DNA from: Comamonas odontotermitis | GTDB lineage: Bacteria > Pseudomonadota > Gammaproteobacteria > Burkholderiales > Burkholderiaceae_C | DNA length: 64,000 bases | Direction: 5' to 3' | Assembly: GCF_020080045.1 (NCBI RefSeq) | Contig: NZ_CP083452.1 | Coordinates: 5,001-69,000, forward strand | Shown: in pieces, positions 16,324 to 50,154 of the stretch | Position numbering within the stretch: the stretch's first letter is position 1 | How the letters are laid out: each line of letters opens with the position of its first letter | Notes under the pieces: model-generated | The model's input: the letters and a program-made list of their open reading frames with translations, nothing else | Database searches by the model: none | Told to the model about the DNA's origin: nothing | Translations under genes and position numbers: made by a program

Positions 16324-16491
16324 TAAAATCAGAATGTAAAGGCACCGCATCTGCAGGTTAACACCTAGATTGCTCGAATCAGCGGATGAAAGACCGGGAG
16401 GAAGGCGCTGCAGAAAGGCGCTACAGGCTCTGGGCGGGTTTGTATGCGCGCCCGGAGCCCTTGGTTGCCCGATCCGAAGGGTTTGCTGCTT

Positions 16492-16563
16492 AGAGCGTGT
16501 TTACGATCTCACTCCAGCCCGCAGAGCCACTGTCGCGGCGCGAGGAGATCGTAAACACGTTCT
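16492..16563 (-). repeat. Inverted-repeat element, short copy (MITE-like)
   Basis: A 72-bp element bounded by AGAGCGTGTTTACGATCTC (16492-16510) and its near-perfect complement GAGATCGTAAACACGTTCT (16545-16563). Read on the minus strand, its first 46 bases match the start of the 268-bp element at 48954 with one mismatch. It is therefore a deletion form of the same repeat. It ends five bases beyond the stop of the GntR gene. It has no coding capacity. Confidence 0.85.
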
Positions 16564-16567
16564 TGGA

Positions 16568-17374
16568 TCAGGCGTCCTGGGAGGTGGCGCCTGCGCTTTG
16601 GCGCTGTGCCAGACGCAGGCGTTCGCGTGAATTGGTCAGGTGGATGCGCATGGCGGCACGGGCCGAATCGGCGTCCTGCCGTTCGATGGCGGCATAAATC
16701 TCTTCATGCTCACGATTGACGCGGCGCAGATAGTCCGGATCGCGTGCGGGCTTGTCGATGGACGCAATGCGGGTGCGCGGAATCAGCATGCTGCCAAAGT
16801 GCTGCAAGATATCCTGGAAGTAACGGTTGCCCGTTGCCTGGGCAATGCTCAGGTGGAATGCGAGGTCGTGGCTGACGGTCTCTGCCCCGGCGGCAAAGTT
16901 GATCTCGAAGGCTTGCAACGCCTGCAGCATGGCGTGCAGGTGCTGAGGCTGGCGGCGCTGGGCGGCAAGGCCCGCAGCCTCGGTCTCCAGGCTGATGCGC
17001 AATTCCAGCACGGCGAGCACGTCAACCGACTCGCTCAACTCGCTGGCGCTCAGCACCAGGCCCGGGCTTTGGCGCGCAGGCAACACAAAGGTGCCAATGC
17101 CGTGCCGCGTCTCCACCAGGCCCGACGCCTGCAGCTTGGACAGCGCTTCGCGCACGACGGTGCGGCTGACATCGTAGCTGCGCACCAGTTCCGACTCGGT
17201 GGGCAGCTTGTCGCCTTCACCCAGCAGGCCCTGCCGGATCTTGGTTTCAAACTCTTCGGACAACAGGTTGGCCAGGTTGCGGCTGCCCCGGTTGGCCTTG
17301 TTGCGCAGGGCGCCAGCATCCGGGCTGGAAAAAATTGCAGGAGATTGGGGTAATTCCGAAGTCGGCTTGCTCAT
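16568..17374 (-). CDS. GntR/FadR-family transcriptional regulator
   Basis: A 268-residue DNA-binding protein. The winged helix (about residues 30-100) contains GDKLPTESELVRSYDVSRTVVREALSKL in outline and the wing GLVETRHGIGTFV. The C-terminal all-helical FCD domain (about 120-250) has conserved His residues (DLAFHLSIAQATGNR) that bind metal and a carboxylate ligand. FCD regulators next to uronate genes (ExuR, UxuR, LgoR) are repressors released by uronates or aldarates. The gene is divergent from udh across a perfect palindrome (17396-17412), suggesting control of both arms and of itself. Confidence 0.9.
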   Translation of the reverse strand: MSKPTSELPQSPAIFSSPDAGALRNKANRGSRNLANLLSEEFETKIRQGLLGEGDKLPTESELVRSYDVSRTVVREALSKLQASGLVETRHGIGTFVLPARQSPGLVLSASELSESVDVLAVLELRISLETEAAGLAAQRRQPQHLHAMLQALQAFEINFAAGAETVSHDLAFHLSIAQATGNRYFQDILQHFGSMLIPRTRIASIDKPARDPDYLRRVNREHEEIYAAIERQDADSARAAMRIHLTNSRERLRLAQRQSAGATSQDA

Positions 17375-48503: not shown

Positions 48504-48833
48504 TCAATGCCCCACGGCCTTGGAGAAGACATTCATCACCACCACGCCTGCCACGATCAGCCCCATGCCGATGAGTGCAGGCAGATCCAGCTTCTGGCCA
48601 AACAATACCCAGGCGGCAATGGTGATGAGCACCACGCCCAGGCCCGACCAGATCGCGTAGGCAATGCCCACCGGAATGCTGCGCAGGGTGAGCGACAGGC
48701 AGTAGAACGCAACCGTGTAGCCCGCCACGGTGATGACCGAGGGCCATAGCCTGCTGAAGCCGTCGCTTGCCTTGAGGGCCGATGTGGCAATGACTTCCGC
48801 CACGATGGCGGTGAGCAGATACACCCAGCTCAT
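48504..48833 (-). CDS. Small multidrug resistance (SMR) exporter
   Basis: A 109-residue inner-membrane protein with four helices, starting [20 protein letters not shown], where Glu13 is the proton/substrate carboxylate. [16 protein letters not shown] near 57-72 is the EmrE-type signature (AYAIWSG). SugE/Gdx types tend to have differences here, so a quaternary-cation exporter is favoured over a guanidinium exporter. SMR proteins work as dual-topology dimers. Confidence 0.9.
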
Positions 48834-48898
48834 GGGGCGCTTGCGCCGTGCGCAGGAGTGAAGAGGGGCATGGGTGTACAGGGTGGAAAAATTGAACA

Positions 48899-48946
48899 AA
48901 AAGGCCTGCGCCGCCCCAAAGGCAAGCGCAGGCTGCTATTGATTTG
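48899..48946 (-). repeat. Dispersed palindromic repeat, copy 7
   Basis: On the minus strand: TCAAATCAATAGCAGCCTGCGCTTGCC, then GGCGGCGCAGGCCTTTTTGTT. GCCTGCGC pairs with GCGCAGGC. Next to the upstream end of the SMR gene and beside the larger inverted-repeat element. Confidence 0.75.
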
Positions 48947-48953
48947 AGAGTTT

Positions 48954-49221
48954 AGAACGTGTTTACGATCTCCTCGCGCCGCGACAGTGGCTTTGCGGGA
49001 GGGGATGCGAGGCGCAATACCGCAGCAATAGCCCCGCTATTGCGAGGATTTGCAACGACGCAGACCGCCCGCAAAACCACTGTCCCTCCGGGTTGGAGTG
49101 AAATCGGGCGATTTCTGCGCGCTGTCCCTTGCTTGCACCCCGGTGCAAGCTGCGGCCCAGCGCTTCGAACTCATCCCGATTGCACTCCAACGCGGCTGCG
49201 TAGAGATCGTAAACACGTTCT
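48954..49221 (+). repeat. Inverted-repeat element, long copy (268 bp, MITE-like)
   Basis: It has perfect 19-bp terminal inverted repeats (48954-48972 and 49203-49221). Inside are two nested arms. The left arm pairs 48983-48999 with 49068-49084 (16 of 17) and encloses GCAATAGC-ccc-GCTATTGC (49025-49043). The right arm pairs 49095-49108 with 49175-49188 (13 of 14) and encloses GCTTGCACC-cc-GGTGCAAGC (49131-49150). No coding frame spans it. It ends 16 bases past the ohr stop. A shortened copy is at 16492. Confidence 0.88.
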
Positions 49222-49237
49222 TAGCGCTGGCGGGCCA

Positions 49238-49648
49238 TCAGCCCACGGTCAAGGTCTTGTTGATGTTGCCGCGCGTGGCGTTGGAGTAGGGGCAGACCAG
49301 GTCGGCATCGTGCACCAGCTTTTCGGCGGCGGCCTTGTCCATGCCGGGCAGGTGGATGGTCATGCGCACGGCAATGCCGAACACGTCGCCCACGGGGCCC
49401 AGATCGACTTCGGCGTCAATCGAGGTGTCGGCTGGCAGGGTGATCTTCTGGCGACCGGCGACGGCCTTCATCGCGCCCAGAAAGCAGGCCGAGTAGCCGC
49501 TGGCAAACAGCTGCTCGGGGTTGACGCCCTTGCCGCCAGGGGCGGTCAGGGTGATGTCGAGCTTGCCGTCGTCGCTGCGCGAGACGCCTTCGCGCCCGCC
49601 GGTGCTGTGGGCGCGTGCGGTGTACAGAACTTTGTCGAGATTGGCCAT
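49238..49648 (-). CDS. ohr: Organic hydroperoxide resistance protein
   Basis: A 136-residue OsmC-superfamily peroxidase. It reduces organic and fatty-acid hydroperoxides with a reactive Cys pair: one in SGYSACFLGAMKAVA (about 52-57) and the second in ADLVCPYSNATRGN (about 117-125). The start at 49648 (MANLDKVLYTARAHSTGGREG) has a CAGGAG site upstream. It lies 35 bases after ohrR on the same strand, so the pair is one operon. Confidence 0.95.
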   Translation of the reverse strand: MANLDKVLYTARAHSTGGREGVSRSDDGKLDITLTAPGGKGVNPEQLFASGYSACFLGAMKAVAGRQKITLPADTSIDAEVDLGPVGDVFGIAVRMTIHLPGMDKAAAEKLVHDADLVCPYSNATRGNINKTLTVG

Positions 49649-49683
49649 GGTGAACTCCTGGTTGAGGATGGGCGAAAAGTGCT

Positions 49684-50154
49684 TCACAACGAAGCGGTGG
49701 ACGGCTGCGCGGTCAAACGATCGCGCAGCTGTTGGATCTGTTGGGTCAGGGCCTGCAGCTCCTGCACGGTGCACTGGCTGCGCGCCAGCACACAGGCGGG
49801 CACGGCGGCGGCCTGGGTCTTGAGGGCGCGGCCCGCGTCCGTGAGGGTGACGCGCACGCGCCGTTCATCCTGCGCATCGCGCTGGCGCTGCAGCCAACCG
49901 GCAGCTTCCATGCGCTTGAGCAGCGGGGTGAGGGTGCCCGAGTCGAGAAACAAACGCTCGCCCAACTGCGAAACCATGCAGCCATCGTGCTCCCACAGTA
50001 CCAGCAGGGCGAGGTATTGCGGGTAGGTCAAACCCAACGGTTCCAGCAAGGGCTTGTAGAGCTTGGTCATTGCCAGCGAGCTGGAATACAGCGCAAAGCA
50101 CAGCTGGTGATCGAGCTGCAGCGCGTTGGATGTGGTGGGGGTGGCGTTGGACAT
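49684..50154 (-). CDS. ohrR: MarR-family peroxide sensor OhrR
   Basis: A 156-residue winged-helix repressor from the ATG at 50154 (MSNATPTTSNALQLD). The N-terminal sensing Cys is in LDHQLCFALYSSSLAMTKLYKPLL (about Cys19), with Tyr residues that hydrogen-bond it. DNA recognition is in LGERLFLDSGTLTPLLKRMEAAGWLQRQRD. Oxidation of the Cys releases DNA. It is upstream of ohr and downstream of a perfect operator (50173-50198). Confidence 0.93.
   Translation of the reverse strand: MSNATPTTSNALQLDHQLCFALYSSSLAMTKLYKPLLEPLGLTYPQYLALLVLWEHDGCMVSQLGERLFLDSGTLTPLLKRMEAAGWLQRQRDAQDERRVRVTLTDAGRALKTQAAAVPACVLARSQCTVQELQALTQQIQQLRDRLTAQPSTASL

Follow-up and report, generated by a model that had tools for sequence, protein, structure and literature searches.

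MITEs are usually read as a pair of ends plus filler. Several described families of bacterial repeats share features with the element reported here. The R0 and R2 elements of Pseudomonas fluorescens (PMC2718517) are, like it, short, intergenic and multicopy, have the same inverted repeats as an IS and are proposed to be moved in trans, but in the excerpt of that report the inverted repeats form a stem with the variable core as loop, and conserved internal hairpin modules do not figure. ERIC, Correia/NEMIS and RUP (PMC2229807) are likewise small and mobile, and their two ends pair to form a stem; in the available part of that source the repeats other than CIR appear with neither arms nor linker, several of them with TA at the termini. 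CIR of Caulobacter and Brucella resembles the present element in having two long arms and a linker and in being kept between species. According to the same excerpt it is about 110 bp long, is tabulated with no terminal inverted repeat (TIR), has GANTC at the loop and moves by a mechanism called unclear (PMC2229807). Palindromic units in alternating orientation are a feature of REP, BIME and REPIN sequences with RAYT (compare PMC2817692 and PMC3116915); the REP/BIME unit measures 20–40 bp and is tied to a RAYT. MITEAba12 is also IS-derived, mobile and bounded by TIRs, but in the section available (PMC6382973) it is a 113-bp element with only weak predicted secondary structure, unlike the Comamonas element.

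The element was found in a window of 64,000 nucleotides, the whole stretch of DNA that was analyzed. Compared with ERIC, Correia/NEMIS and RUP as set out in the excerpt, it is distinguished by a TNA target duplication and by two arms and a linker inside the end-to-end stem. Membership of CIR implies two arms and a linker without a TIR, and the Comamonas element does have a TIR. Against REP, BIME and REPIN, it has the ends of a DDE IS, a target duplication and modules of 80 nt. With IS5-family ISs (NF033580), represented by one from Paracidovorax anthurii, it shares ends and TNA duplication, but it encodes no transposase and only the terminal 17–18 bp are in common. The element is an IS5-type MITE and not a new class of transposon. 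Its interior is of a kind that we did not find described, with inverted twin hairpins of fixed geometry that occur across element families with different ends. No description of the element was found among the open-access titles and abstract openings searched, which took in papers on Comamonas repeats, IS1031/IS5 MITEs, repeats of Burkholderiales, Chromobacterium, Nitrosomonas and Neisseria, and MITE stop codons. In this MITE it is the filler that is shared most widely, in the form of one hairpin module whose stems covary and in which some mismatches are fixed.

Organization of the Window Copies

The original prediction described two copies of a MITE-like element with shared 19-bp TIRs. Both copies were found: the 19-mer AGAACGTGTTTACGATCTC has four matches in the window (at 16492, 16545, 48954 and 49203, one with one mismatch), where 0.00 were expected from 100 shuffles. 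The repeat is real but one base shorter than proposed, since the inverted repeat proper is 18 bp (G...C), GAACGTGTTTACGATCTC, and the 19th base is the A or T of the flanking TNA.

As judged from ends, fold and flanks, the long copy is a full-length two-arm MITE of 266 bp (48955..49220). Its 18-bp TIRs lie at 48955..48972 on the plus strand and at 49203..49220 on the minus strand, and the sequence has the target duplication TTA at 48952..48954 and again at 49221..49223. In the consensus fold of an alignment of related elements (A1, see below), the arm B hairpin on the plus strand (48983..49084) and the arm A hairpin on the minus strand (49092..49191) are linked by a mini-hairpin CCnnnGG at 49085..49091. 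Each arm contains a module. That of arm B, in sense orientation on the plus strand (48996..49075), is matched by the covariance model with 96.6 bits and is one of the model's own seeds. That of arm A (49105..49178) reads CGGGATG...CGCCCG on the minus strand and had no match by covariance model R1 in the window at an E-value of 0.001. The nested two-arm palindrome proposed for this copy is strongly borne out by folding of 48954-49221, which gave −161.4 kcal/mol on one strand and −169.9 kcal/mol on the other (z = −13.5 and −13.8), a stability that none of 200 shuffles reached. With four end matches against 0.00 expected and a fold far beyond that of shuffles, chance is ruled out for the window repeat. 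The longest listed ORF wholly within the long copy has 75 aa, and there is no transposase gene.

The short copy (16493..16562) measures 70 bp and is flanked by TTA on the left (16490..16492) and by TTG, one base off TTA, on the right (16563..16565). It had been described as keeping one end and part of an arm; the internal deletion and the partial arm are there, with no full arm left, but both ends are kept. The TIRs that mark a MITE are thus present in both copies. An OsmC-like gene (ohr, 49238..49774, minus strand) adjoins the long copy, and a putative gntR gene, so named in the original prediction, adjoins the short one (16568..17374, minus strand). A distance of 5–16 bases to a stop codon had been given; the putative gntR gene ends 5 bp past the short copy, and the ohr stop codon at 49238-49240 is 17 bp past the long one. 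On the opposite side of the long copy from ohr there is a gene of the small multidrug-resistance (SMR) family at 48504-48899.

Copies in the Host and Related Genomes

In the host genome (genus Comamonas; 4.83 Mb, three contigs) the end motif occurs 42 times forward and 41 times in reverse with at most one mismatch; a reversed-pattern control gave 0. These ends delimit 30 two-ended elements (21 longer than 200 bp, one of 173 bp and eight of at most 90 bp), and the others are single. Five single ends of one end list were left out of the retrieved loci. The element lengths span 48–307 bp, and the copies are dispersed, as befits MITEs of a few hundred base pairs at most. They are located between different genes and have TNA duplications. 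Copies of 48–88 bp have break points that differ from one to the next, which fits recurrent internal deletion, so that the predicted loss of internal sequence after spreading would have taken place more than once. The most similar long host copies are 97% identical, which gives no sign of recent movement in the host. The exact end motif is present in 17 of 24 genomes of the same genus and absent from all 16 genomes examined elsewhere in the order. The element is thus not restricted to two loci in one strain, the situation that would have spoken against the original prediction of a non-autonomous element that spread. As far as sequences can tell, its 30 two-ended host copies, their TNA duplications and the existence of an IS with nearly the same ends support such an element.

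The target duplications that the prediction called for were found. With duplicates dropped (L058:2934, L158:479 and L197:3445), the 3-bp flanks are identical in 21 of the 30 elements of the host and in 69 of the 87 from other genomes, a set that includes some orthologues of host elements; in all 90 of these, out of 117, the triplet is TNA. Before duplicates were dropped the flanks were identical in 91 of 121, and 45 of these 91 had C before and G after.

The closest relative genome among the matches listed is that of Comamonas odontotermitis S00124 (G054). At the site of the long window copy it has an element with the same flanks, in which the interior is inverted and arm B is different; among the five orthologous pairs of long elements seen in the two genomes, inversion occurred only at this site. 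It may have arisen by exchange between copies via the identical inverted ends. The short copy is conserved in S00124, at the position orthologous to that in the host. At another locus, a 279-bp element sits on a stop codon in S00124 and is absent from the host, where the stop is in the same place and about 20 bp more are missing; at a second element-free site the flank has diverged. Both element-free sites are thus imperfect, and this evidence of presence and absence is between species and not at strain level.

A Candidate IS5-Family Partner

TNA duplication is typical of the IS1031 group of the IS5 family. A full-length, transposase-bearing relative, which had been suggested as something to look for, was found in P. 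anthurii: an IS of 843 bp (L113) whose ends, GAGCGTGTTTACGATCTC, are nearly those of the MITE. It is flanked by TAA left and right and has two ORFs for transposase. Its DDE ORF belongs to the IS5 family by Pfam and NCBIfam (NF033580, 144.9 bits at a cut-off of 110), and the N-terminal ORF alone scores 81.9 bits, under that cut-off. Relatives of this transposase, many of them distant, are present in 35 of 53 genus genomes (E ≤ 0.001). The ends of 11 genus ISs outside the host were examined. Two of these ISs (G046 and G052) have GAACGTGTTTACGATCTT at one end and TNA-type flanks that are not identical, and three of the 11 loci have no convincing end pair. The candidate partner ISs, L113 and, from Comamonas, L420 and L423, have ends that differ from the MITE end by at least one base each. 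An IS with ends matching those of the MITE was looked for in the host genome and not found; the three intact IS copies there have GAACCTGTTCAAAGTCT ends, 5 of 18 bases off the MITE end, with duplications TAA, TAA and TCA. Judged by its sequence, a candidate autonomous partner with nearly the same ends exists in the genus; the search of the host yielded no IS whose ends match.

Other observations concern the same ISs. In one genome of the genus, G063, an IS5-type IS related to L113 is present on contig C1 in twelve or more almost identical copies. In P. anthurii, IS ends and other element ends adjoin each other, separated by a single TNA (L167:41-328 and L113:550-1430), as though one element had inserted at the edge of another.

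Stop Codons and Gene Context

Since TAA, TGA and the complements of both fall under TNA, a gene stays intact when the element inserts precisely on its stop codon. The flanking triplet is the exact stop codon of a neighboring gene in 45 of 116 non-coding elements, 11 of 29 in the host and 34 of 87 elsewhere. From C-TNA-G sites in the same loci 16% (host) and 25% (other genomes) would be expected (P = 0.004 and 0.003), and from all non-coding or stop TNA sites 7.6% and 10%. The figure of 34/87 (P = 0.003) counts L086 and L097, which are the same element, once; counted twice they give 35/88 and P = 0.0017. Genes were called with a hexamer script for these and the orientation counts, and some loci of the two compared genomes are orthologous, hence not independent. 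With L086 still included there are 46 stop-codon cases, 40 with identical and 6 with non-identical flanks. Only 1 of 118 elements lies inside a gene, as against 60–70% of C-TNA-G sites. The enrichment at stop codons beyond the TNA target rule is modest. The overlap of TNA targets with stop codons provides a simple account of multiplication without gene breakage.

The orientation of host genes around the element is near background, with 6 of 29 convergent (43 of 236 spacers) and 6 of 29 divergent (54 of 236); no clear enrichment was found among these copies. Within 48700-49500, no terminator-like or promoter-like site was detected inside the long element. The sole terminator-like site there, 48901-48917, lies outside it, and an intrinsic terminator was rejected as an identity for the element, since no stem with a T-run occurs within it.

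Twin Hairpin Arms and the Module

Alignment A1 comprises 48 elements over 375 columns, from Comamonas, Paracidovorax, Acidovorax, Simplicispira, Rhodoferax and other records. Arms A and B are homologous and in opposite orientation, each reading CGGGATG...CGCCCG on its own strand. Pairing is kept despite changes on both sides at 33 of the 82 consensus pairs of this Comamonadaceae alignment, a count made without the one row in the wrong orientation (L092); with that row it is 40 of 82. Interior variation among elements takes the form of whole stems replaced at once. All 22 of the 22 two-module loci have the modules inverted, with a linker of 25 nt in 12, 24 in 6, 23 in 2, and 21 and 36 once each.

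In a larger alignment of 122 modules, the covariation score is 0.535, compared with 0.145 in shuffles (0/500) and at most 0.073 when slid, and 19 of 21 pairs show changes on both sides; this alignment was fitted to the covariance model and is biased in its favor. Some unpaired columns of these 122 modules are more than 90% conserved. Of the 58 non-redundant modules outside loci L031-L211, 53 share a fixed mismatch, C opposite A. The covariation is computed; selection, which we infer from it, has probably acted on a folded single strand.

The covariance model (R1) was built from 21 modules (alignment A2), obtained by reducing 60 strings to 30 non-redundant ones and using 21; three of the nine left out look like chance matches. 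With R1, whose E-values are rough, and at most 15 candidates scored per genome, the module was matched in 94 of the order's 300 sampled genomes, which represent 52 of 134 genera, and, in a phylum-wide draw, in 45 of 299 genomes, including 37 from other orders. A motif pattern that takes no account of stem pairing was matched in 65 of 399 genomes and 42 of 158 genera, with three matches in total for the reversed control. From about 150 listed order-wide matches, 28 loci outside the genus were returned and 40 more were retrieved.

In a set of 100 module loci, 40 have ends and identical 3-bp flanks, which in one case (L381) are not TNA; no such ends were found for the other 60. The 40 bounded elements are 159–163 bp (10), 265–268 bp (22), 238–244 bp (6), 182 bp and 279 bp long. 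Other ends than those of the Comamonas element occur in 14 of the 32 elements of the two main size classes. They are GGGCTCGTTAATGAATAA and close variants (with GGGCCTATTCATGAATAA and GGGGCTGTCCATGAATAA), GAGCCTGTCTCACAAAATC, GAGCCTATTTCAGTAGG, GAGCTTGTCCGTAAATAA and GAACCTGTTTAG(TG/CA)TCTC. At least five other end types thus carry the module, at least six in all, mostly in elements of about 160 bp with one arm or 266 bp with two. Plasmids of Cupriavidus and Mitsuaria have the module in elements with other ends. The whole element was not found on plasmids, five plasmid records carrying the module alone. The original prediction did not extend to the TNA target or the way it coincides with stop codons, to a partner IS of the IS5 family, to the homology of the inverted arms or to the order-wide presence of the module with other ends.

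Possible Mechanisms

In view of the above, we consider it probable that the element as a whole is an IS5-mobilized MITE that inserts at C-TNA-G and carries a twin-hairpin fold under selection. An IS5-family DDE transposase would recognize the 18-bp ends and move the non-autonomous element in trans, and the reaction at C-TNA-G would produce the TNA duplication that is observed. Landing on a stop codon would be harmless and insertions within genes would be lost, which could account for the proportion found at stops. Inside the element, the two inverted module copies and the small linker hairpin are predicted to form a Y. The form under selection may most likely be RNA, made by read-through from a neighboring gene; since the arms point in opposite ways, a transcript from either side has one module in sense orientation. 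Its job would likely be protection of the 3′ end or binding of a host RNA protein, by which, we propose, insertions could become tolerable. Deletion of palindromic arms would give rise to the short copies.

Which strand folds can be examined by counting pairs. A G-U pair on one strand is A-C on the other, and an imbalance therefore indicates the folding strand. In the 58 non-redundant modules outside L031-L211, a strand-symmetric pair list gave 24 G-U against 0 A-C, in a set gathered with a model favoring G-U. An alignment-free test on the motif gave 19 against 2 over the first three stem positions in 60 of 83 strings and 29 against 6 over all 83; at the fourth stem position it gave 9 against 10. 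The 83 strings were hand-picked among the matches listed, with Comamonas and near-identical strings omitted and relatives from single genomes included. For the Comamonadaceae, strand-symmetric pairs on the strand with arm A first gave 28 G-U against 16 A-C. A one-strand pair list, which leans towards that strand, gave 28 to 16 in sense for arm A and 23 to 3 as aligned for arm B. The latter is 3 to 23 in the arm's own sense, which slightly lowers our confidence in the preferred explanation. The wider set points to the sense strand of the module, and the counts for the Comamonadaceae would sooner indicate a single strand of the element as a whole. The reading of the element as RNA is a weak one.

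The strand preference could also be that of a folded single-stranded DNA, in the form of hairpins that arise during replication or transposition and are bound by the transposase or a host factor. G-T is the best tolerated mismatch in DNA hairpins too, the element is mobile, and its oppositely oriented arms make its two strands alike, all of which would suit such DNA. However, IS5-type DDE transposases act on double-stranded ends and the modules lie well inside the ends, and a double-stranded cruciform would give no strand preference. We regard selection on DNA instead of RNA as a serious contender that is nevertheless unlikely.

It is unlikely that nothing beyond an ordinary MITE is at work, with ends and transposase explaining everything and the palindromic interior being kept by DNA processes only. 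Template switching in quasi-palindromes copies one side of a stem to the other and would generate covariation without selection on the fold. The replacement of stems as wholes is what template switching predicts, palindrome arms have repeatedly been lost in short copies, and the direction of the G-U to A-C imbalance is inconsistent between the arms in Comamonadaceae. Yet template switching would mend mismatches, whereas the C opposite A is retained in most modules amid highly conserved unpaired columns; the fixed mismatches make self-repair of the palindrome unlikely as the whole cause of the covariation. The module and the linker length also persist across different ends, and G-U exceeds A-C in the wider set.

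A main role as transcription terminator or stabilizer of mRNA 3′ ends, co-opted by the host where genes end, is improbable. A very stable fold and the exact start of 45 of 116 non-coding elements at a stop codon would suit this role, but the TNA target accounts for much of the stop-codon effect, the element is without a terminator-like site and host neighbors are oriented near background. A larger duplicated gene remnant, for which the one 75-aa ORF wholly in the interior could be quoted, was rejected and is next to impossible, as the dispersed copies have TNA duplications and different genes as neighbors, and entire stems differ from one interior to another.

The preferred reading, mobilization by an IS5-type transposase with selection on the fold, leaves room for a wider and more tentative idea, to which we give less than even weight: the unit of inheritance could be the hairpin pair itself, a structured RNA (or single-stranded DNA) cargo of fixed geometry on varied IS-type ends. 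In that case an effect of its fold, either on the host or on how the cargo itself spreads, would be the reason for its retention in many Pseudomonadota. If the module works as RNA, it would represent a large structured-RNA family, absent from Rfam 15, that transposons have spread onto the 3′ ends of genes.

Related Families and Other Occurrences

Rfam gave no family above threshold for the element, and only rRNA and tRNA in the window, so that membership of a known Rfam family was rejected; the best weak match is RsmY, with 16.5 bits where 57 are required. A phage origin was likewise rejected, the phage collection containing no match to the element.

Several further elements came to light. A second family of about 150–163 bp has the same ends as the long element and one module only. 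One host copy (L078:2998-4507, contig C1, near 3557280) contains an insertion of about 1.5 kb, absent from C. odontotermitis S00124, with two transposase-like ORFs just inside the end. Module elements with ends near AGTCCACTGAATCATTGA are situated beside metabolic genes on large Cupriavidus plasmids (L346 and L348). At L364, L385, L394, L410 and L415 the module occurs in stretches of 238–244 bp with another inverted repeat (GAAACCTCAGTTGGACG and similar) and identical 3-bp flanks, perhaps a further size class. In the phylum-wide draw, many small genomes outside the class (family f76) have module matches, with up to 15 scored per genome. Chromobacterium (L095, L100, L101, L109, L114, L119 and others) has a third family, of 140–151 bp and many copies, in which the same kind of ends (GAACGTGTTTACGATCTC / GAACCTGTTTACGATCTG) enclose a different interior.
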